DNA from: Diphasiastrum complanatum
Lineage: Eukaryota; Streptophyta; Lycopodiopsida; Lycopodiales; Lycopodiaceae
Direction of reading: 5' to 3'
Length of the DNA: 64,000 bases
Assembly: GCA_029204225.1 (NCBI GenBank)
Contig: CM055102.1
Location: forward strand, 22,892,660-22,956,659
Below, piece after piece: positions 22,145-59,000 of the stretch. Each line of letters opens with the position of its first letter. Position 1 is the stretch's first letter. A model generated the notes under the pieces. The model was not told where the DNA came from. It worked only from the letters and a program-made list of their open reading frames with translations, and ran no database searches. The translations under genes were made by a program, and so were the position numbers.

Positions 22145-22717
22145 TTTTGTAGCGTAGGACTACATTTAATTTTATTTACATTAGAATTTAGGAAAATAAA
22201 TCTACACATCTTAGAAACAAATCTGTACTTTTATTGATAAAAATGTTGATAATGGGCACATCTATCAACTAGGGTGAAAATCAGTGGAGATAGAAACATA
22301 TCTCGGAGTATGTGAATCTGTTTAAGGCAATATACCATCTCTTATTTTGAGGTCCATTTGCTCATATATTTTTACAATTCATAAACAGATTATATGCTAG
22401 ATTATTACTGGCTCATAAATGCTAGATTATGTACCTCTGCTCATAAATTTTTACATAAAATAATGTTTGTCTCCTATTTTTTGTTGTAGATGCACGTTTT
22501 GTAGCGTAGGACTATATTAATTTTATATTACATTAGGATTTATGAAAATATATCTACACATTTTACAAAAAAATCTCTTCTTTTATTGATGAATCTGTTG
22601 ATAATAGGTGGGAATCAGTGGAGGTCAGAATAGACCTTGGAATATTTGGATTTGTTTAAGACAATATACCATCTCTTATTCTGAGGTGCATTCCGACATC
22701 TGCTCTTACATTTTTAC
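22145..22717. repeat. tandem duplication with a period of about 350 bp
   Basis: Blocks at about 22145-22384 and 22494-22717 share TTTTGTAGCGTAGGACTA, a TTTTATTGATRAA block and CAATATACCATCTCTTATT. Old, non-coding. Confidence 0.65.
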
Positions 22718-29204: not shown

Positions 29205-29494
29205 ATTGCCAACTTCCTTTTTGCCTTGTTAAAGCCCTTTGAGATCAACCTCTTGATCATCAATTGATATTAGCCAATTTTTTAGCACACAAAATTGAGC
29301 TAATTTTCAAAGTTTCATGCAATAACTTCTATGGTTTCTAGGAAAAGTGGATTAAATCAAAGTGTGATCGGCACAGATTTGGCTAGTGTAGCCCATGCCA
29401 AAGGGATCCCAGTTCACCCAAAAAGAACTAATTTTTAGATAAAATTAGCCTTAGAGTTGGCTATAAGGTTTTATTTTGGTTGATGTACGCCTGA

Positions 29495-30345
29495 TTTCAT
29501 CTATGTAACCTCGGGTGATTGTTTTGCTGGTTACAATCAGATAGCAATGCGGAATGAAGATAAGCTGAAAACCACATTCATGACCACGTTTGGAGTTTTT
29601 GCATACCACGTAATGTCATTTGGGATGTGTAATGCTCCTGCTACCTATCAGAGATTTATGAATGAGAGTTTCAATAATATCCTAGATGATGATTTAAAAA
29701 TATTCATGGATGACCTATGCGGTGCTTTTAGCAAGAATGGACATTTATTTGTACTTGAGAAATGTTTTCGAAAATGTGCTACTACCTGTATTGCCCTGAA
29801 TGCAAATAAGTGCGTATTCGGCGTACCATATGGAGTGTTGTTGGGCTGTATTATTAGTAAATATGGAATAGCTACCAATCCTAAAAAATAAAACTACTCC
29901 TAGCTTTGATGGCTCCGACTACTATCACTCAGTTACAATCCTTTTTGGGAGGTACCAAAGATTATAGACCCTATGTGATGGCTTATGCAACCAGAGCCCA
30001 CCCCCATAATGGATTGTTGAAGAAAGACATAGTATGGAAATCGATACATTGGAGGAGCTAGATGAATAGAGACTAGCCTCCTTAGTCCATCAGAAGACCT
30101 TTAAGAAACAGATGAAGTTGACTCACAATCAAAAGATAAAAGGTTACTCTTTTTTCCTAGCTCAACTAGTACTATTCAGAGATCCATGTCATGATCTTAT
30201 GCCCCAGAAGTTGGTCTTCAGGTGGAGTGGACCTTATGTTGTAAAGAAACTCTACGACAATAATACCGTGAAGTTGGTTGATCTATCAAGCAAGGTGTTC
30301 AAGCACCGAACCAACATTGATAAAATCAAACCTTATTACGTCTAA
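29495..30345 (+). pseudogene. Ty3/gypsy reverse transcriptase joined to integrase C-terminus (internal deletion)
   Basis: 29495-29891 encodes the reverse-transcriptase palm: FAGYNQIAMRNEDK, FGMCNAPATYQRFM and the active-site box IFMDDL (the Y/F-x-D-D motif). The connection region LALMAPTTITQLQSFLGG follows to about 30060 with a stop. At 30112 the frame turns directly into an integrase C-terminal end with FRWSGPYVVKKLYDNNTVKL and HRTNIDKIKPYYV, stop at 30345. RNase H and the integrase core between them are missing. Reverse transcriptase copies element RNA into DNA; this copy is defective. Confidence 0.85.
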
Positions 30346-31084: not shown

Positions 31085-31482
31085 GGGAGATCAAAGTAAA
31101 ACCATACTCATTGTTTTTTGATAAGGCCTCTAGAGATACAGAGTAGAGAGGGGCCATTGGTGTGATTTTAAGGGACCCATAGGGAGTAGAAGTGGCTAGC
31201 ATGGGAGTTTTTATTGGTGAGAGATTCACCAACAACATGGCAGAGTTTAAAGCACTTATTTTGGGTTTCCAAATGATAGTGAGAGCACAAAGAAGGATAT
31301 CTTCTATAAGGATTATAGGAGACTCACAACCTGTGATATATGGTATGAATGAGAAACACCGAATTGCAGTGAACCATCTTTTTCAATACCAACTGATCCA
31401 TCCATCTATGCATAATCACATAGCATTATTGAGGACGGATTCCGACATCCGACGTGGGTGTCATGTGGCAAATTTTCTTTGA
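31085..31482 (+). pseudogene. second (plant/archaeal-type) RNase H domain downstream of gypsy integrase
   Basis: The frame reads YSLFFDKASRDTE, then a stop, GAIGVILRDP, a second stop, and the open part GERFTNNMAEFKALILGF...IRIIGDSQPVIYGM. Asp in FFDKAS, Glu in MAEFKAL and Asp in GDSQ are the expected metal-binding residues. The TNNxAE and GDSQ motifs are typical of the extra RNase H that Tat-lineage gypsy elements carry besides their retroviral-type one. In the usual Tat order this domain precedes integrase; here it lies about 700 bp after the integrase end. RNase H degrades RNA in RNA:DNA hybrids. Two internal stops make it a pseudogene. Confidence 0.7.
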
Positions 31483-31984: not shown

Positions 31985-32319
31985 AGGTGAATGAGTTGAT
32001 TTTAATTTTTGGTTTCAATTTTTTGTTTTGAGAAAAGAGATTGAGAGTGAAAGAGAGAGAGAGAAAGAAAGGTTATGTGTATATAATAGAATGAATGAAT
32101 TGTTAATTAATTGATTTTATTTTTGGTTTTGATTTTTTGTTTTGAGAAAAAAGATAGACGTTGAAAGAGAGAGAGAAAGAGAGGTAATGTGTGTGTTTGT
32201 GTCTATAAGAAAATGTATGAAATGTGAATGATTAGGAAAAGAAAGATTGTGTGAAAAAAAATTGATATGAATGAATTGATTCTGATTTTTGGTTTTAATT
32301 TTTTGTTTTGAGAAAAAAG

Positions 32320-32416
<97 letters not shown>

Positions 32417-32570
32417 GGGGGGGTAATGTATGTATAAAAAAAGGAATGAAATGTGAATGAATTGATTTTGATTTTATGTTTTCAAAACAAAGATAGAAGT
32501 TGAAAGACACAGAGAAGGAGAGGTAATGTTTATGTTTTTATAGGAAAAAGAGAGATTGTGTGAAATTTTT
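31985..32570 (+). repeat. minisatellite: four GA-tract-bearing units of about 110-190 bp
   Basis: Each unit starts TTGATTTTRATTTTTGGTTT, continues TTTTTGTTTTGAGAAAAAAG(A) and carries a GA tract, then GGTAATGT. Units start near 31996, 32109, 32276 and 32462. The long GA run at 32322-32413 lies inside unit 3, while the other units hold short GA runs at the same place. Confidence 0.7.
32322..32413. repeat. (GA)n microsatellite, about 90 bp
   Basis: A pure run inside the third minisatellite unit, ending in GGAGGGGGGGG. Confidence 0.95.
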
Positions 32571-32620
32571 TTTATGAGAGAGATAGAAAGGTAATGTTTT
32601 TTTAGAGAGATATTTTGTGT

Positions 32621-32787
<167 letters not shown>

Positions 32788-33481
32788 TAATGTGTGTAAG
32801 GCTTTTAGCATAATCAATTCATTCACTTGAAAAGCTTTCTTCCATTCTCTACATGCACACATCATTTTTTATTTTATCCATAATAATTGTCTAAGAATTC
32901 TGACCTCATTAGCATAGTCACTTTTGATATTGCCCACTGTGATATCCTTGGATTCCTATTAAGGCTCTTGGAGAGACACTTGGTTTGTATCAATGGGTGT
33001 AGCTAAGTTTCGCATTTATATTGTCACTTAGGCTTTCTTGAAGGATGTTTCAGGAAGGTCGTAGTCTCATCGTAGGTGCTCAAGTTCACTTAATCATACA
33101 TGGTTGAAATTTCATACTCAATTTTCTTTGCAATACTCAAGGGGTCAACTCACATTGCATGTGTGTGTGTGTCTTGAGAACCCACATAACCTCATCTACT
33201 CTACTCCTTAGCTAGCGCCCTCTATGCTTCTCATAATCAACAATGATGATAGCTCCTCCTCTTGAAAATCGCTTATTAGCTCCTTTGCTCCTCAATTGAA
33301 AACTCCTTTTCACCTTGACGAATGACGTTCATCAAGAATGCCCATGAACTGTCCAAGTGCGTGCCATACAACTAAGCTTTGATGAACAATGTTCGTCAAG
33401 AAATGTTGTTCAATTTTTCTTGTAAAAGAAAATAGATGAGACTTGCACAAGACTCAAAATTACTAAACATGCCTTATAGGA

Positions 33482-34267
33482 TGTTAAAATTGAAAAACAA
33501 TCCATATTGATTTCTTGCCTTGCTACAAATGTTGTACCATGCAAGTATGTAGCTCATTAATGCATAATGCCAAGTTTGGTCTACATAGAACTCGAGCTAC
33601 ATGGTTATGAAATATCTAGATTGATGAATACAACTTGCATATAGTTTGTAGACATAGAATTAGCAAAGTCATGCTTGTAGAAACTCGTGGCAGTTCACAT
33701 GCATTAATTGTAAGTGATCCATAGTGACATGCAAGGCATGCACAAAATGTAATGGACACATGCATGATGATTTGGACATTTCTAGTTAGAAATAGTACAC
33801 TTGTAAAAAGTTGATAGAATTTCATGCATGGCAAAAAAATGTCACATAGACTCTAGATGTCACTTTAGATGTCATTTCGTAATGAATGGATGTGCTTCTA
33901 CCTCGAGCTACCTCAAACTCCATAAATATGTGTAGCTCTCCTCACAATCAATGATGAAGAACCAAAGTTCTGTAGCTATCTCATGTCATTTTGGATCTAA
34001 ACTATTTTGTTTTTTATCTCTCTACTTTTCTCTCTCTAACTTGTGTTGAAGCTAATGCTTATACACTGATATCTTGTACTTTTGCTCATAATTGATTCAT
34101 TGCTATCATATTTAGTAGCTTAGCATGCTAGATTGTGGTTAAGCCATTTCTTCTGAACTAGATCTTGCTAATCAATCTAGAATCAGGTTACTGTTGGCAC
34201 AAAGCTTAATTAGATCCATCATACTTGTGGGCATTCCCCACACGTGTGAAATCTGGAAATTTTGTCA
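33482..34267 (+). mobile_element. 5' LTR of copia family A
   Basis: It starts TGTTAAAATTGAAAAACAA and ends TTTTGTCA directly before a primer-binding site. Its first 450 bp or so match 40266-40723, which follows a polypurine tract. A CACGTG-like block (CACACGTGTGAAATCTGG) lies near the 3' end. The minus-strand copy at 46470-46650 is the same family. The LTR would carry the element's promoter and polyadenylation signals. Confidence 0.85.
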
Positions 34268-34311: not shown

Positions 34312-34603
34312 TGTACAAGAATTATATCTCCCTATCTTGAGTTTTGGGGCCATGCCTATGTTATTTATATTGTATACTTTATTGTACATAAAGTTATGTG
34401 AATCGAGCACATAACCTTCTAGAATAGGTCGAGTTTGAGTTAGGTAGATTCAATCTTGATGTCATGCAAAAGTTTAGATTACATGCAATGCCATTCAATG
34501 TGCATGCAAGCAACATGCAAAGTAGTTTTCATTATCTACACATGTCTAGGCAATTTTGAGAGATGACATGTAGTACATGCAATATCCATGCATGCAGTTA
34601 TAC
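34312..34603 (+). repeat. LTR-like direct repeat R1 (partner 36906-37203)
   Basis: It runs from TGTACAAGAATTATATCTCC through GAGTTTTGGGGCCATGCC to the ATGCATGC-rich end. The same block follows the polymerase at 36906-37203. Position on both sides of a pol gene suggests LTRs of a second, nested copia. The left copy joins family-A leader sequence exactly at GATTGTACAAG, so a recombination origin is also possible. Confidence 0.65.
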
Positions 34604-34639: not shown

Positions 34640-36917
34640 TGGACTTTCCATGCAACTCCACTGTAGGAGGTGAATAAACCTCCAATAAGTTTAAAGACTT
34701 TTGTGAGGAAGAGGGAATACAAAGAGAATTTCTTGTTCTTATACTCCTCAACAAAATGGAGTTGTTGAGAGAAAAAATAGAACTTTGTGTGAATGTGCAA
34801 AAGCCATTAGGCTAGAAGCATCTCTGCCTAAAGAATTTTGGGGAGAAGCAGTTGCATGTGCAAATTATCTTTGTAATAGGCTTCCTAATGTTGCAACAGA
34901 AAGAAGAACACCATTTGAGATGTTGTATAAGAAAAAGCCTAAGGTAGATCATCTTAGGATCTTTGGCTGTGTATGCTTTGTGCATGTACCTTTAGAGACT
35001 AGGAAGAAGGATGACCCTAGTGCTATGAAAGGAATTTTTGTAGGATATGCATCTACTAAAAAAGCATATAAAGTATATCTTCCCTCTATTGACAAATGTT
35101 GTAAGTAGAGATGTGATCTTTCATGAAGATCAAAAGCTTAACTTGGATGAAGCACAAATCAAGGAGTCTCATGCAAGATCTACAATCATCAATCTTGATG
35201 CTGCTCAAGAAGTGGTGAGGCTGAGGCTTGAGGACGAGCAACTTCAAGCACCTACACCAAGAAGATATACAAGAGAAAGATCTGAGCCAAGAAGGCTCAC
35301 ATATGATGAGGAAGGAAGGCAAGTGGAAGGTGAAACTTCCTATCATGCTCTCTTCATATCAGATGAAGAGCCTAACGATGTCCAAGAAGCACTTCAATCC
35401 AAGAAGTGGGTTGAAGCAATGACCCAAGGGTTTGAAGCCTTGATGTCAAACAACACATGGGAGCTTGTGGAGCCACCAAACAACATGCAAGTAATTGGAT
35501 GTAAGTAGGTTTGCAGGATCAAGTATAAAAATGATGGATCCATCAACAAATATAAAGCAAGACTTTGTGCCAAAGGCTACTCTCAAATCAAAGGTCTTGA
35601 CTATGAAGGCACCTTTGCACCAGTTGCAAAAATGGTAAAAATTAGAATACTCAAATCTCTTGCATGTTATCACAATTAGAGGATGTTTCAGCTTGATGTT
35701 TCTAATGCCTTACCTTGAGGAGGAGATTCACATGGAGCAACCACCTGGATTTGTGAAAGAAGGTGAAAAATCAAAAGTTTGTCTTTTGTTCAAAAGTCTC
35801 TATGGACTAAAACAAGCACCAAGGTCTTGGTATGCAAGGCTCAACTCATTTCTCATATCACTCGGATTTTGTCTTAGTGAATATGATCCCTCTTTGTATA
35901 TTGAGTTTGTTAATAACTTTGTAGTTATACTTCTCATCTATGTAGATGATATCATTCTTTGTGGAAATAATGAAAAGCTAGCTGAAGAAACTAAGATGGC
36001 ACTTGGTAGTGAATTTAGGATGAAGGACTTAGGAGTTTTTCACTATATTTTAGGCCTTGAAATTGACTATTGGAAAGGTCATGCCTTCGTAAGTCAAAGT
36101 AGATATGCACTTTCCATGCTCAAGAAATTCCAAATGAAAAACTGTAAAGGCATAGATACACCAATGGAGCACATTGTAAAAGTTCCTATGAAAGATGATG
36201 AAAAATCCTTTGAGGACATCACTCTTTATAGGAGTCTTATTGGCTCACTTATATGGGTAATTGTGACAAGGCCTGATCTAAGCTTTAGTGTGCATAAGCT
36301 AAGTCAACACATGAAGGATCCAAAGATATATCATTGGAAGTTGGCTAAAAGAATCTTGAGGTATATATCTTCTACCTTAGACTATGAATTAATCTACAAA
36401 GGAGAATATCTGACTTGGGTTGCTTTTTCAGATTCAAATTTTGCATAGAAAATCCACAAGCGCTTACACAATTTTTCTTGGAGGGAATATAGTTTCTTGG
36501 CCATCAAAGAAGCAAGCAACTATATTTTTATCATCCTGTGAAGCTGAATACAAATCTCTTACAACCACAACAAAAGAGGTTTTATGGATCAAAAGGCTAC
36601 TCTTGGAGCTAAAGTGTTATGGAGGTGAAAATCTTCCAATTATCGAGAATGATAACATCTCAACTCAAGCTCTAGCAAATAATCTTTTGTTCCATGCAAG
36701 GAGCAAACATATCGAGGTAGCTCATCATTTTGTAAGAGAAAAAGTTATTGGGAGAGAGATCTTATTGGAGCATGTTGGATCTTCAAATTGTGTTGCAGAT
36801 CTTCTCACCAAGCCATTGCTCAAGAATGTTTTTGTCAAGATGAGGTCTAACCTTGGCCTAATTTCAAAGTCTATGTTGGATAGGAACATATATTTTAAGG
36901 AGGATTGTGAAGATTAG
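34640..36917 (+). pseudogene. Ty1/copia integrase-RT-RNase H, 5'-truncated, several lesions
   Basis: Integrase begins in mid-core near 34660; the usual GGGEY motif is damaged (TGTAGGAGGTGAATAA). 34785-35108 has ECAKAIRLEASLPKEFWGEA and HLRIFGCVCF. After a frameshift near 35100 comes the linker (35047-35508), ending at a TAG in IGCKW. Reverse transcriptase (35520-36448) keeps LYGLKQAPRSWYARL and the active site IYVDDIILCG. RNase H (36420-36917) has RKSTSAYTIFLGG, SSCEAEYKSL and HARSKHIEVAHHFVREK, stop at 36917. A purine run (AAGGAGGA) at 36898-36905 precedes repeat R2. Gag, protease and the integrase N-terminus are missing. Confidence 0.88.
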
Positions 36918-37203
36918 TAAAATTATATCTTCCTATCATGAGTTTTGGGGCCATGCCTATGTTATTTCCATTGTAAACTTTATTGTACATAAAGGTATGT
37001 GAATTGAGCACATAACCTTCTAGAATAGGTCGAGTTTGAGTTAGGTAGATTCAATCTTGATGTCATGCAAAAATTTAGATTACATACAATGTCATTCAGT
37101 GTGCATGCAAGCAATATGCAATCAGTGCATGCAACATGCAAAGTAGTTTTCATGATTGCACATATCTAGGCAATTTGGAGAGATGACATTCAATACATGC
37201 AAT
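36906..37203 (+). repeat. LTR-like direct repeat R2 (partner 34312-34603)
   Basis: It starts TGTGAAGATTAGTAAAATTA right after a polypurine run, as a 3' LTR would, and matches R1 until ACATGCAAT, where the two diverge. Confidence 0.65.
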
Positions 37204-38382: not shown

Positions 38383-39307
<925 letters not shown>

Positions 39308-40255
39308 TGGTTCAAGATGCAAGATCTTGGAAAAATTCCCTATATTCTAGGATTAGAGTTTGACTTTCTTAAAGATAAAGCTTTTGTATATCAATCCAAG
39401 TTGAATTGTAAGAGTATAGAAACACCTATGGAGCAAAATGTAAAGGACTCTAACAAAGGTGATGAAAGATCTTTCATGGACATCACAGGCTCCTTAATTT
39501 GGCTCACAATAACTAGACTTGACATAAGCTTTAGCGTTCATAAGTTGAGCCAGACTATGCAAAATCCTTCTGTTTATTATTGAAAAATGGCCAAGAGAGT
39601 GCTTAGATATATATCTTCAACTTTTGATTTTGGTTTATTGTATAAAAGTGAAGATCTTTCTATTATTGGTTATTCTGACTTGGATTTTGCAAGTGATAGA
39701 GCAGATCAAAAATCTACAAGTGCTTATGTCATATATCTTGGAGGAAACTTTATTGTTGGCTTTCCAAAAAGCAAGATACTGTATCACTCTCATCATGTGA
39801 AGATGAGTACAAGGAACTCACTACAACAACAAAGGAAGTGCTTTGGATCAAGAGGTTACTAGTGGAGCTAAAGATAATAATGCTTCTTGGTTTCCAAGGG
39901 GAGGCTCGAACCTGAGACCAAAGAAACTTTGGATGTCAAGCTAACCAACCAAGACAACCCCGTTGGTTTAAAGATAATAATGGAAGAGGATCTACCTATG
40001 ATCATGTATGACAACATTTCAGCCCAAGCCTTTGCTAACAACCCAATATTCCATGCAAGGAGCAAACACATCGAAGTTGCACATCACTTCGTGAGAGAGA
40101 AGCTCATTGGAGGTGAAATCAAATTGAGCACATTGACACATCATCTTGTATTGCTGATATGCTCACCAAACCTGTGAGCAAAAGTTCCTTCATCAAGCAT
40201 AGAGCCAATCTTGGAGTTATACCAAGATCCATGTTCAAATCGATATAGATTATTT
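39308..40255 (+). pseudogene. Ty1/copia RT end and RNase H, interrupted by a SINE
   Basis: It starts in reverse transcriptase (KMQDLGKIPYILGLEFDFL) and continues through SLIWLTITRLDISFSVHKLS, RYISSTFDFGLLY and [12 protein letters not shown]. Near 39860 an 86-bp tRNA-like insertion breaks the frame. After it come DNISAQAFANNPIFHARSKH and HHFVREKLIGGE, then a frameshifted ADMLTKP end. A polypurine tract and 3' LTR follow directly. Confidence 0.85.
39883..39968 (-). mobile_element. 86-bp tRNA-like SINE, copy B
   Basis: On the minus strand the element starts AACCAACGGGG, carries a complete B box (GGTTCGAGCCT), a weak A box, a CCAAAG-TTT-CTTTGG hairpin and the terminal CTTGG-AAA-CCAAG hairpin, and ends AAGAAG. 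Perfect 14-bp duplications of TAAAGATAATAATG flank it at 39869-39882 and 39969-39982. It sits in copia RNase H. There is no poly(A) tail. Confidence 0.85.
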
Positions 40256-40265
40256 TTAGGAGGAG
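40256..40265 (+). promoter_or_regulatory. polypurine tract
   Basis: TTAGGAGGAG lies directly before an LTR starting TGTTGAAATTG. It is the primer for plus-strand DNA synthesis. Confidence 0.85.
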
Positions 40266-40723
40266 TGTTGAAATTGAAAAACAATTGATATTGATTTCTT
40301 GACTTGCTACAAATGTTGTACTATGCAAGTATGTAGCTCATTAATGCAAAACGCCAAGTTTGGTCTACATAGAACTCGAGCTACATGGTTATGTAATATC
40401 TAGATTGATGAATACAACTTGCATACAGTTTGTAGACATAGAATTAGCAAAGTCATGCTTGTAGAAACTCGTGGCAGTTCACATGCATTAATTGTAAGTG
40501 ATCCATAGTGACATGCAAGGCACGCACAAAGTGTAATGGACACATGCATGATGATTTGGACATTTCTAGTTAGAACTAGTACACTTGTAAAAAGCTGGTA
40601 AAATTTCATGCATGGCAAGTGACAAATGTCACATAGACTCTAAATGTCACTTTAGATGTCATTTTGTAATGGATGGATGTGGTTCTACCTCGAGCTACCT
40701 CAATATCCATAAATATGTGTAGC
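40266..40723 (+). mobile_element. 3' LTR of copia family A, truncated
   Basis: It matches the first part of 33482-34267. It stops at AATATGTGTAG, where copia B integrase begins (CCTCAACAAAATGGAGTAGC). The last 330 bp of the LTR are missing. Confidence 0.85.
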
Positions 40724-42956: not shown

Positions 42957-43106
42957 TTAAGGGAGAGTGTTGGAATTTACTCTAAGTCCTACTCATCCCA
43001 ACAACCCTCCTTTATTCTCTAATTTTTTCTCTCTCAAATGTAACCTACAAAAAATGAACTATTTTTAAACAGTCTGCATTTTTGAACTAATTGTCGCTAC
43101 AGTCTA
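42957..43106 (+). mobile_element. polypurine tract and truncated 3' LTR of copia family B
   Basis: CTTAAGGGAGAG (42957-42968) is followed by TGTTGGAATTT. The first 140 bp or so match the minus-strand LTR starting at 48267 (CTCTCAAATGTAACC, AAACAGTCTGCATTTTTGA). The LTR is cut near 43106 by the minus-strand copia. Confidence 0.8.
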
Positions 43107-46078
43107 TTTTTTTTTCCAAGTGCAATCTTGGTTTCCTCAACTAACTTGATACAACTTCCTGTCAGAATAATATCATCAGCATAGATAAGAATGATGACAA
43201 TATCTTTATCAAAAAACTTGACATATAAGGAACGATCATAGTTACTAAGATTAAATCCTAGTGACTCAAAAAAGGTGTTAAGTCGAGAATACCATAACCT
43301 TGGAGCTTGTTTCAATCCATATAAACTTTCGAAGAGCAAGCAAACTTTTTCTTTGTCATGGATGAACCCAATAGGCTGATCCATATAAATCTCTTCTTCT
43401 AGATACCCATTTAGAACTGCATTAGAGACATCTAGTTGAATAACTTGCCAATTGAAAAAACAAGCAAGAGAAATTATGATTCTAATTGATACCATCTTTG
43501 CAATTGGAGAAAAGGTCTCCTCATAATCAAGTCCATAAACTTGAGAAAAACCTTTAGCACAAAGCCTAGTCTTGTACTTGTTGATTGTTCCATCTTGATT
43601 ATACTTGATTCGAAAAACCCACTTGCAACCAATTGTGTGCTTGTTGGATGGAAGATCCACAAGCTCCCATGTCTTATTGGCCATCAAAGCATCATATTCC
43701 TCCTTCATGGCAAGGTACCATTCCTTCGAGTTGAGAGCATCATATACATCCTTCGGCTCCTCATGAGAAATAAAATAAGCACAATTAATGGAGTTGATTT
43801 CTACTTGCTTGTCTCTATCTTCATAGGTAAGCCTTCTAGGCTTGGATCTTTCTCTTTGAGATCTCCTTGGTGAAAAGATTCGAGGAGACTCCTCCTCAAT
43901 TCTTGGCCCCATATCTCCATGATAGTCTTCAAGAGTGATGATTGGAGTATCTTTGTGAGAATCTTTGAGCTCGGCCTCCTCAAGAATGTATTTTTTATCT
44001 TCATGGAATATAACATCTCTACTCTCAATTATAGCTGAGGTAGAGGGAACATAGATTCTGTAGGCTTTCTTGTTGGATGCATATCCAACCATGATTCCTT
44101 TAATGAAATTAGAAACATGGGCACATTTACAAAGCAATCACAACCAAAAACTCTAAGGTGATCTACCTTAGGTTTCTTCTTAAATAAGACTTCAAAAGGT
44201 GATTTTCCAGCAAGTGCATTGTGAGGTAATCTATTGCACAAATAGTTTGCACAATTTATAGCTTCACCCCAATATTCAATAGGCAAAGAAGTTGCTATTC
44301 GAATTGCTTTAGCACATTCACATAAAGATCTATTTTCCCTCTCAGCTACTCCATTTTGAGATGGAACCCAACGGGGTTGGCTCAGTTGGTTGGCTTGGCA
44401 TCCAAAGTTTCTTTGGTCCCAGGTTCGAGCCTCCCCTTGGAAACCAAGAAGCATTTTGAGATGGAGAATAAGCACAAGAAAACTCTCTCTTTATTCATTC
44501 ACCTTCACAATAATCATGAAACTTGTTGGAGATGTATTCACCTCCTCCATCACATCTTAAAGCTTTAACTTTGAAAGAAAATTGTTTCTCAACATAAGCT
44601 TTGAAGACTAGGAAGTGATAAAAAATCATAGCCTTTGAAGAAAGTAGATACAACCAAGTATATCTAGTAAAGTCATCAATAAAGGTGACAAAACATGTTG
44701 CACCACCAATACTTTTAGAAGAGAAAAAATGTACATCTGAATGCATGAGCTCCAAAGGATGAGTAGCCTTTATAAAAGACTTCTAATATGGCTTTCTATG
44801 TGACTTTGCAATGGCACAAGCCTCACAAGGCTTGAGATCTTTAGAAAGAGATTTTGGAAGACCAATAGCCTTCACCTTCTTAACCATAGAAGACATAGAT
44901 TTAAAGTTAGGATGACCCAACCTTCTATGCCACAGCTCCTCCTTAGATAACAAAGCAACTTCACAAAGGTTTGCATTCTCATAAGAATTCAACTTAAAAA
45001 TTTCACCACATCTAGATCCATCAGCAAGGATCTCATCATTTTTCTTGGTAAAACAAGTAGTGGAGTTGAACTTTACATCACAACCATTATCAAGCAACTT
45101 TCCCACACTAATTAAATTCTTTGTAACTTTTGGAATGAAAAGAACATTAGAAAGTGCAAGAACTTTTGAATAAGCAAGTTTCAATGGAATGTTGCCAATT
45201 CCTTCTATTGGGAACTCATGATCATTAGCAGTATAAATAGATCTCTTGAGTCCTTCGTAAGGTAAGATTGAGTCAAATGACTCCTTTGAACAGCACATAT
45301 GTGAAGAAGCTCCATTGTCAATGTACCAAGCTCCATCTTTCTTGAAAGATGATGATGAAAAACTGGACACCATGAGTGATCCTTCTCCATCATTTGCAAC
45401 ATAATCTTCTTCAATCTCTTTGGAGAGATTAGCTTGCTTGAGTTGGTTTTTCTTCTTAAAGCAATTAGAGGCATAGTGTCTCTTTTTGCCACAGAAGAAA
45501 CATTTCACTTTCTTTTTCTTGGTCTTTGAGCTAGAAGGATGAGATGTATCATCCTCTTCACCATCTTTGTCTCGATCTTTGGCTTTGTCTTTGTTGGATG
45601 CTTGAGAGAACTGGTTCTTACTCCTTCCTTTCTGCTTGCCTTTGACAAAGAGGGCTTTGTCACTTCCACCATGTTCAAGTTTGTTCATCCTGGAGAGTTT
45701 ATAGCTTTGTCTAGATTCTTCAGAAATAAGAATTCCTTGGAGAGTTTCTAGATTAGGCAACTACTCCTTAATAGCAAAAGACTGAACAAGATTATCATAG
45801 TCATCTTTCAAGCCATTCAGTATGACTTGAACTAGCTCATCTTGGTTAATAGTAACACCAGCACAGGAAAGCTCTCTATGTAAATCTTTAACTCTCAAAA
45901 CATAGTTAGATGTACTCTTTTCACTTCTTTAGAAATTTTGGAAAATTTGATTCCTAAGAGTGAGTATTCTAGATGTATTCTTTGCTTTATAGATGGACTT
46001 TAGCACATCCCAAGCTTCTTTGGCTATAGTGCAAGATCCTATCTCTCTCAAAATTTCATTAAATACATTCATCTCAAA
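43107..46078 (-). pseudogene. Ty1/copia family A relative: gag-protease-integrase-RT, 3'-truncated
   Basis: Right to left: gag without its N-terminus (46078-45770), CCHC zinc knuckle CFFCGKKRHYASNC (about 45510), protease WYIDNGASSHMC (D-N-G instead of D-S-G), integrase HHCC zinc region ELWHRRLGHPNF...CEACAIAK (45760-44783), and integrase core LMHSDVHFFSSKSIGG and CDGGGEY (44755-44495). An 86-bp SINE insertion lies at 44366-44451. Then integrase end, linker and reverse transcriptase (44137-43097) with LYGLKQAPRLWYSRL and IYADDIILTG. RNase H and the 3' LTR are missing, cut at 43107 next to copia B's LTR. It is among the least decayed elements here. Confidence 0.9.
44366..44451 (+). mobile_element. 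86-bp tRNA-like SINE, copy A
   Basis: It reads ACCCAACGGGG... to AAGAAG. A-box match TGGCTCAGTTGG at 44378-44389 and B box GGTTCGAGCCT at 44422-44432 form an internal RNA polymerase III promoter with 32 nt between them. Hairpins: CCAAAG/CTTTGG around TTT (44402-44416) and CTTGG/CCAAG around AAA (44436-44448). The ends can pair as CCAA-GGGG with CCCC-TTGG. Perfect 14-bp target duplications CATTTTGAGATGGA lie at 44352-44365 and 44452-44465. Two of the three copies lie in copia coding DNA. The whole element is little longer than a tRNA, with no tRNA-unrelated body or poly(A). Confidence 0.9.
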
Positions 46079-46930: not shown

Positions 46931-48267
<1,337 letters not shown>

Positions 48268-55364: not shown

Positions 55365-56957
<1,593 letters not shown>

Positions 56958-57059
56958 ATTTGCTTTTGATTGTTTTTTGGATCCATTTGATGGTGGTATT
57001 TATGAAATGTGCTAGAATAATTTTACTATAAAGGTCACTTCCTAGGTCTTGATAGAGTG

Positions 57060-57462: not shown

Positions 57463-58046
57463 TGCCCCTTTTGTAAAGTTAACCTGCTATTAGCTGAAAG
57501 GGCATTGCTTTTAGCAAAAATTCTATTTTTGCAACTGTATTCAGGCCTTCTGCATAATGTCTTCATCTTTAATGTACTACCACCGGATTATGGTACTATA
57601 TGGCAACAACATACATCAACGGTGTTTCATTCCCTCAGCATACAACAGACTTACGCACACAATGACAACTTCTATGCTCAAGACAACTACATTTAGACAA
57701 TGTGACAATAGGATTTTCATCACTAGCATCTCATAACACTTACTCAATCAACATTCAGAACTGTATCAACCACATACTTCACTGGATCTCCTCCACCACC
57801 TCTCTGAAAAGCTTATGTTGTCAAGCCATCAACCTCTTACTATAGGTAGATTTACCCAGAGTTAACTCTCTAACCAGTGGCATTAGAACTCTCCTTCTTT
57901 AACTTAGTTAAAGAAGGAGACCATGGTCGCAGACTCTGCCTTCATTTTCCTAACTCTAAATACTCCACTGCTCAGCTTTTGTCACGTAGCATAAGCGTCT
58001 CACCCCCAACAGGTTCACATACTCTCTCTCTCCATTCTAACAGGGT
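57463..58046. other. no recognisable gene
   Basis: Unassigned sequence between the gypsy fragment and SINE copy C. A small hairpin CTCTCCTTCTTTAAC / GTTAAAGAAGGAGA lies near 57890-57920. Confidence 0.4.
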
Positions 58047-58133
58047 TAGTTAAGGGTGTTGGCTCAATTGGTTATCTTGACATCCAAAGTTTCTTTGGTC
58101 TCAAGTTCGAGCCTCTCCTTGGAAACCAAGAAG
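58047..58133 (+). mobile_element. 87-bp tRNA-like SINE, copy C
   Basis: It starts TAGTTAAGGG, has A-box-like TGGCTCAATTGG, B-box-like AGTTCGAGCCT and both hairpins (CCAAAG/CTTTGG and CTTGG/CCAAG), and ends AAGAAG. Perfect 14-bp duplications CATTCTAACAGGGT lie at 58033-58046 and 58134-58147. It is slightly more diverged than copies A and B. Confidence 0.85.
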
Positions 58134-59000
58134 CATTCTAACAGGGTGGTAGGACACAGGTGTAGTAGAATAGCATGGTGCTCAAAACTCTCCTTCAATC
58201 AGCATCACTAGTTGAAATAACTCAACTTCATCAATAGCAGCATGGGGGGTGCCATCTTTTAGCAGTAGCACATCAGTATTACATAGCAGCATATCAACAC
58301 AACATATCAAAGCATATCAACACAACAGCACAACATGATAGCAGAACATAGCAGAAGAATAGCAAAAGAGCAGCAAAACAATACAAGAGCAAATCTCTTC
58401 AATAGTGTCTCCTCTGAACTCAACGTTTTGTGGCATTTTATAGAGGGTGGTAGAGGGCCATCCTTCAACCAGTTATTTTGTCATTCTTCATCCTTTTCTC
58501 TCTATTTCAACATGTGAACAAGAAACCGACCGTTCCTGAAAAGCACAGAGATTTTTGTATTAGTAAAAACTTGGTAAGTACATCAAAATTTTGCTCGACA
58601 TTGCCGGCATTTTATATCCGGGTCAATTCTAAGGCCGTAAAAACTTCCAACTAGTGACATTTAGGTGGGCTGAGACCTATTTCTACATGGACCGGCATTT
58701 TTTGCTTGGTCTTACAAACTTTGGCCTTTGTCAAATATTTTCGACGGTTCTTGTGATCATTTTTATAGATCTATTACTTAGTATCTAACAACGTGTCTAG
58801 CCACTTTAAGAGCATGATGGGACCTCTTTTTGGTCCAATATTTTGCGTCAATTTAAGTAGGATTCACAGTATTTTGGTGCTCGCCAAATGCTCTTTCTGC
58901 TCAATATTAGCCTGATTTTTGCCACCAAAATTTTGACTAACAGTAGTCGTCAAAATCCCAATAAGTAACTACAATACAACAAGTTAATTATTGCTCTTTT
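58134..59000 (-). mobile_element. unassigned sequence, right part probably the 3' LTR of the next copia
   Basis: On the minus strand a polypurine run (TTAAGGGAGAGAG, about 59002-59015) follows the RNase H fragment and is followed leftward by TTGAAAAAGAGC. The LTR's left end was not found. 58260-58380 is rich in AGCA-type repeats. Confidence 0.4.

Follow-up and report, generated by a model that had tools for sequence, protein, structure and literature searches.

Three copies of a short unit of 86–87 bp, each enclosed by a target-site duplication of its own, lie in the 64-kb stretch of Diphasiastrum complanatum DNA that we analysed (the window). Within this window the mobile unit is 86–87 bp long and complete, since the flanks of the copies are unrelated, the duplications bound the unit and two of the insertion places are empty in a related copia element. 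We believe that it is very probably an extremely short element without body or tail that works like a SINE, being transcribed by RNA polymerase III from internal boxes and then inserted by LINE-driven target-primed reverse transcription.

The original prediction had placed three insertions with a common sequence in the window, and their coordinates, strands and lengths proved exact (copies a, b and c, Table 1). The three copies align without gaps apart from one base at the 5' end of copy c. Seven columns of the aligned copies differ between a and b and 13 each between a and c and between b and c, so that the copies are 8–15 percent apart in pairwise comparison, with 6 of the 13 differences of copy c from a (and from b) falling within the first 15 columns. 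An nhmmer profile built from the three copies recovered a, b and c from the window with E values of 2e-29 to 8e-31 and detected no fourth copy there, the next match having an E of 0.37. A 19-base piece of the unit, with 3 mismatches allowed, matched the window three times and matched none of 100 shuffled versions. The GC content of the copies is 0.55 (a), 0.49 (b) and 0.43 (c), versus 0.37 for the window as a whole. Outside the duplications, the 100-bp flanks are identical at 21–32 of 100 positions in six ungapped comparisons, which is to say that they are unrelated. It had been considered that the copies might turn out to be embedded in longer conserved elements; within the window this is excluded because the flanks have nothing in common beyond the duplications. 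All three copies thus have the form expected of a SINE: the unit is short, non-coding and complete, and its ends stay fixed from locus to locus. Exact-pattern scans of viral and prokaryotic contig collections gave no match, as expected there, and no paper on this element is among the matches listed in the open-licence literature. A search of open-licence papers by sequence words listed one 12-letter word in common with PMC1950885, a paper on endoderm gene expression.

Table 1. Coordinates in the window of the three copies, their duplications and motifs, and the copia sequences beside or related to them.
Feature	Position	Strand	Remark
Copy a, whole element	44366..44451	+	86 bp
Copy b, whole element	39883..39968	-	86 bp
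Copy c, whole element	58047..58133	+	87 bp; most diverged
5' target-site duplication of a	44352..44365	+	CATTTTGAGATGGA
3' target-site duplication of a	44452..44465	+	exact copy of the 5' one
5' target-site duplication of b	39969..39982	-	CATTATTATCTTTA
3' target-site duplication of b	39869..39882	-	exact copy of the 5' one
5' target-site duplication of c	58033..58046	+	CATTCTAACAGGGT
3' target-site duplication of c	58134..58147	+	exact copy of the 5' one
A box of a	44378..44389	+	0 mismatches to TRGYNNARNNGG
B box of a	44422..44432	+	1 mismatch to GGTTCGANNCC
3' end of a	44437..44451	+	TTGGAAACCAAGAAG, identical in all three copies; TTGGAAACCAA can form a small hairpin
TTTT in 3' duplication of a	44454-44457	+	could end a Pol III transcript
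Pfam rve beside a	44498-44782		
Pfam SH3_retrovirus beside a	44032-44490		
Pfam RVT_2 beside a	43100-44137		
Related copia, stretch aligning with both flanks of insert a	34662..36006	+	insert place near 34752-34758, empty
Related copia, stretch aligning with both flanks of insert b	36140..36814	+	insert place within 36614-36631, empty

The predicted perfect 14-bp duplication at each insertion is likewise found in all three copies. The duplications, which are of retroposition size, have a different sequence at each locus, and none of the 42 duplicated positions differs. As a control, 30 windows simulated with a Markov model contained 9 exact repeats in total (at least 13 bp, at a distance of 60–250). 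Under the same criteria the real window gave 11 repeats, including the duplications of a and c and others that belong to longer repeats; the duplication of b is missing from these 11 because it was removed by the complexity filter. A scan for further direct repeats resembling insertions returned 45 rows, many of them within longer duplicated stretches. Separately, an 18-bp exact direct repeat (22145-22162 and 22497-22514) encloses 334 bp and is possibly a further insertion with a long target duplication.

All three duplications begin with CATT and are directly preceded by TC, a site unlike the TT/AAAA of mammalian L1. In the window CATT occurs at a frequency of 0.0068 per position and strand, and 87 of its 873 CATTs are part of TCCATT. 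The chance that the second and third copies would agree with the first on CATT is ∼5e-5, and that of TC standing ahead of all three is ∼0.001, both values being computed post hoc on three copies. This shared start suggests, from three sites, that the RNA of the element may end in ...AAGAAGCAUU and pair with the nicked target. Because the duplications all start with CATT after TC, the simplest reading would be an RNA that has CAUU as its end or as its priming site, the four bases being common to the end of the element and to the target. The start of the target would then be complementary to the 3' end of the RNA, as described for tail-less retropseudogenes; here the CATT at the start of all three duplications is observed, and the RNA end is what we infer from it. 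In copy a the duplication reads CATTTT..., which places a run of four T directly at the end of the element. No TTTT follows directly after the element in b or c.

Two of the insertions were predicted to lie in copia coding DNA, and this is borne out for a and b by reading frames and by alignment to a related copia element; copy c sits in DNA without a recognised frame. When the insert and one duplication are removed at site a, the rejoined minus strand continues over the junction in an open copia integrase frame (SPSQNGVAERENRSL), with a stop codon ∼10 codons before the junction. We assign this site to copia because of the neighboring Pfam matches to rve, SH3_retrovirus and RVT_2. At rejoined site b a plus-strand frame is open across the junction and aligns with a related copia downstream of its RVT_2 match. 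The two ORFs flanking copy b matched no Pfam family, and the copia label of this site is given because of its alignment with the related copia, which adjoins an RVT_2 match at 35639-36445.

In the related copia both insert places are empty. Local BLAST alignments to it from the two sides of each insert show an offset that jumps by a net 100 bp at the insert, equal to the 86 bp of the element plus the 14 bp of one duplication. The offsets are 2049 to 34758 vs 2143 to 34752 at site a, and 874 to 36614 vs 991 to 36631 at site b, where 16 diverged junction bases are unaligned. The empty sites are defined by these BLAST offsets, as MAFFT, applied to site a and its paralogue, placed the gap uncleanly. 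The related copia lies 3–10 kb from the inserts, and because the identities are 67–77 percent these are paralogues rather than alleles. No empty counterpart was found for copy c. It had also been claimed that the elements moved after the copia elements landed. This is likely for a and b, but mobilization of an insert-bearing copia in trans would in principle be possible.

The window contains other repeats. Around copy b, two pairs of direct repeats resemble the LTRs of nested copia elements, namely 34320-34520 with 36921-37121 (94 percent over 201 nt) and 33478-33936 with 40261-40723 (94.4 percent over 463 aligned columns). Microsatellites of (GA)n/(TC)n form long stretches at 32288-32810, 38505-38850, 47345-47652 and 55780-57000, and a 300-nt stretch at 38537 is 98 percent like one at 47345. 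In 55397-56900 units recur at a spacing of 504–528 bp, accompanied by runs of (TC)n and (CA)n. A diverged tandem motif around GTGTCGGGTTTTTCGC is found at two distant places, 39102-39294 and 47910-48102.

Each copy contains sequences that resemble what we take to be the A-box and B-box consensus of RNA polymerase III promoters, TRGYNNARNNGG and GGTTCGANNCC. Mismatches to the A and B boxes are 0 and 1 in copy a, 2 and 1 in b, and 0 and 2 in c. The A box begins at +13 or +14 and the B box at +57 or +58, a start-to-start distance of 44 nt, which is the spacing seen in tRNAs. If each box may have no more than 1 mismatch and the starts must be 30–60 nt apart, the pair in copy a is the only one in the window, whereas allowing 2 mismatches per box yields 46 pairs. 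Against these 46 background pairs the boxes of b and c do not stand out and are counted solely for their homology to those in a, and the predicted promoter is unique in the window in copy a only. ARAGORN found no tRNA gene in the window, Rfam gave no match there at gathering scores, and Rfam applied to copy a alone with E up to 10 reported no tRNA. What Rfam did list for copy a were four weak matches (mir-2778, mir-8864, mir-351 and GlsR5, E of 0.58–5.4), which are far below gathering scores and which we regard as chance. Of a recognizable tRNA, 7SL or 5S RNA head there are thus the box motifs alone, as ARAGORN and Rfam report no such RNA. The description of the elements as tRNA-like therefore stands as far as the box motifs and their 44-nt spacing go, clearly so only in copy a, but it does not extend to a tRNA that ARAGORN or Rfam can see. 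An ordinary tRNA gene or a recognizable tRNA pseudogene is rejected on the same empty results.

After the B box only ∼20 nt are left, closing with TTGGAAACCAAGAAG. A tail of A, T or simple repeats is absent from all three copies, and AAGAAG directly abuts the duplication. Because this usual hallmark is missing in all three copies, we class the element as a SINE-like variant, one that probably works as SINEs do, and not as a strict member of the class. The small 3' hairpin is predicted in b, in c only if the four following bases are left out, and not in a. Fold stabilities have z values of -1.1, -1.6 and -0.8, and the best folds differ among the three copies; since the folds differ and are not unusually stable we claim no conserved structure, and with z between -0.8 and -1.6 a specially stable foldback RNA is rejected. 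Variation is crowded toward the 5' end, with 13 of the first 34 columns variable versus 3 of the last 53 (Fisher p 0.0003, the cut having been chosen after seeing the data). This distribution fits a 3' end that may be constrained for recognition by a reverse transcriptase, and other causes of a fast 5' end are possible.

Placed on a three-branch tree, the copies show divergences of about 4, 4 and 11 percent. Had all of this arisen after insertion, ∼5.3 mismatches would be expected in the duplications, an upper bound because part of the change on the long branch of c may be older, and none is seen (P ∼0.005). With no duplication mismatch against the ∼5.3 expected, much of the divergence likely predates the insertions. 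From this it would follow that more than one source sequence was likely active and that the insertions themselves are likely fairly recent.

The mechanism that we propose would begin with an RNA of ∼90 nt, made by RNA polymerase III from the internal boxes of the unit. An endonuclease/reverse transcriptase encoded by a LINE would nick the target between AATG and GA (AATG|GA; TC|CATT on the top strand), and the freed ...AATG-3' end would pair with CAUU at or near the 3' end of the RNA and prime cDNA synthesis. Cleavage of the second strand 14 nt away would produce the duplication. We propose that the short homology takes the place of a tail, so that the insertions carry neither poly(A) nor poly(T). 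Copy a sits at CATTTT, and its own transcript could stop there, which would regenerate the same 3' end. The exact 14-bp duplications, the same 3' end in all copies, lengths within 1 bp of each other and the lack of terminal inverted repeats (2–3 of 15 end bases match) support this reading, as do the open frames at the rejoined sites, the empty places in the related copia, the box positions of copy a, the shared CATT start after TC and the crowding of variation toward the 5' end. Counting against it are that there are only three copies in one window, the missing tail, the lack of a recognized tRNA, the background-level boxes of b and c, the unremarkable and differing folds, and the absence of TTTT directly after b and c. 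A Pfam scan of 27 of the 77 stop-to-stop ORFs that reach 90 aa also recognized no certain LINE. An RVT_1 match at 29484-29888 reads as gypsy by eye, and an RVT_3 match at 31183-31479 is compatible with either gypsy or LINE. A more specific version, which we hold only tentatively and consider rather doubtful, is that a minimal tail-free SINE-like RNA is a Pol III promoter unit ending in CAUU, that base pairing of this end to the nicked AATG determines the target, and that insertions at CATTTT re-create the stop and become new sources. Should this hold, the same four bases would govern both where a copy lands and whether it can act as a source.

Other origins can be weighed against the same data. 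The copies might be 3'-shortened descendants of a longer SINE with body and tail, if internal priming took place at one and the same CAUU in all three. Mammals do have SINE copies that were primed internally and lack a tail, according to a passage in PMC5322556, but the terminal base is the same in all three copies here and nhmmer detected no longer relative in the window, so that we find this unlikely. The copies might instead be tail-less retropseudogenes of a tRNA-like host RNA, copied by a LINE through internal priming at matching DNA and not forming a self-propagating family. They share with the therian retropseudogenes described in part of PMC5322556 the missing tail, the duplications and a possible complementarity between the target start and the 3' end of the RNA. 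Those are truncated copies of known RNAs, in which target and RNA end are complementary at TT/AAAA or TT/WAAAA, whereas ours are a repeated, boxed unit at another site (the mammalian TT/WAAAA is not seen) with no tRNA or other Rfam RNA matching at threshold, and thus no known RNA of origin in Rfam. Moreover, the copies are 8–15 percent apart and yet their duplications are perfect (the P of ∼0.005 above, by an upper-bound reckoning); more than one diverged source is therefore probable and an element family is the easier fit. We regard retropseudogenes as decidedly unlikely.

Two further possibilities fare worse. A derivative of a DNA transposon such as a MITE would also be short, non-coding and enclosed by target duplications. 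We reject it as highly improbable since terminal inverted repeats are missing, and it also sits poorly with Pol III-type box motifs and with a 14-bp duplication, target duplications of plant TIR superfamilies being shorter than this. That the copies spread by segmental duplication, or arose as an assembly artefact, might be entertained in a window so rich in repeats, but the flanks and the duplication differ at each copy and two insert places are empty in a related copia. The unrelated flanks refute it, and we give it next to no credence.

The reading that we prefer, a minimal SINE-like element, can be compared with established SINEs. Animals have simple SINEs that consist of a tRNA part only, such as rodent ID, with A-rich tails and a clear tRNA identity; our element resembles them in being scarcely more than a tRNA-sized head, but has no tail and no recognized tRNA. 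Au-like and p-SINE elements of plants are longer than 86–87 bp and end in T, unlike the AAGAAG found here, or AAGAAGCATT when the overlap with the duplication is counted. In having a 3' end other than poly(A) our element is nevertheless like those with a short T ending that are treated in sections of PMC3747384, and its source RNA may end in a few U. More generally it resembles the seed-plant SINEs with tRNA promoters covered in parts of PMC2774510 and PMC3747384 (ZmSINE, Au, p-SINE and TS) in box positions, in being non-coding and in a presumed LINE helper. The boxes of copy a at +13 and +57 fit the maize SINE anchors, for which a passage of PMC2774510 gives an A box at ∼+14 and a B box at ∼+54, and the 14-bp duplications fall inside the 8–20 nt range stated in an excerpt of PMC8825457. 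In contrast to seed-plant SINEs, it totals 86–87 bp with ∼20 nt after the B box, has no body, inserts at TC|CATT and has no poly(A), poly(T) or TTG tail. Plant SINE 3' repeats consist of A, T or short repeats in the portions of PMC3747384 and PMC2774510 that describe them, and a passage of the former calls the partner LINEs of T-ending plant SINEs unidentified.

The plant SINE annotation criteria quoted in part of PMC8825457 ask for boxes, a tail and 20–500 nt between the B box and the tail, and an element without a tail and with ∼20 nt after the B box could escape them. A SINE-Finder-like pattern misses all three copies. Whether the tail is too narrow a hallmark of SINEs is a question raised in a passage of PMC5322556. 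If the element is widespread, it would lower the known size limit of a working plant SINE and would offer a test of the minimum 3' sequence that a plant LINE requires in an RNA in order to copy it.
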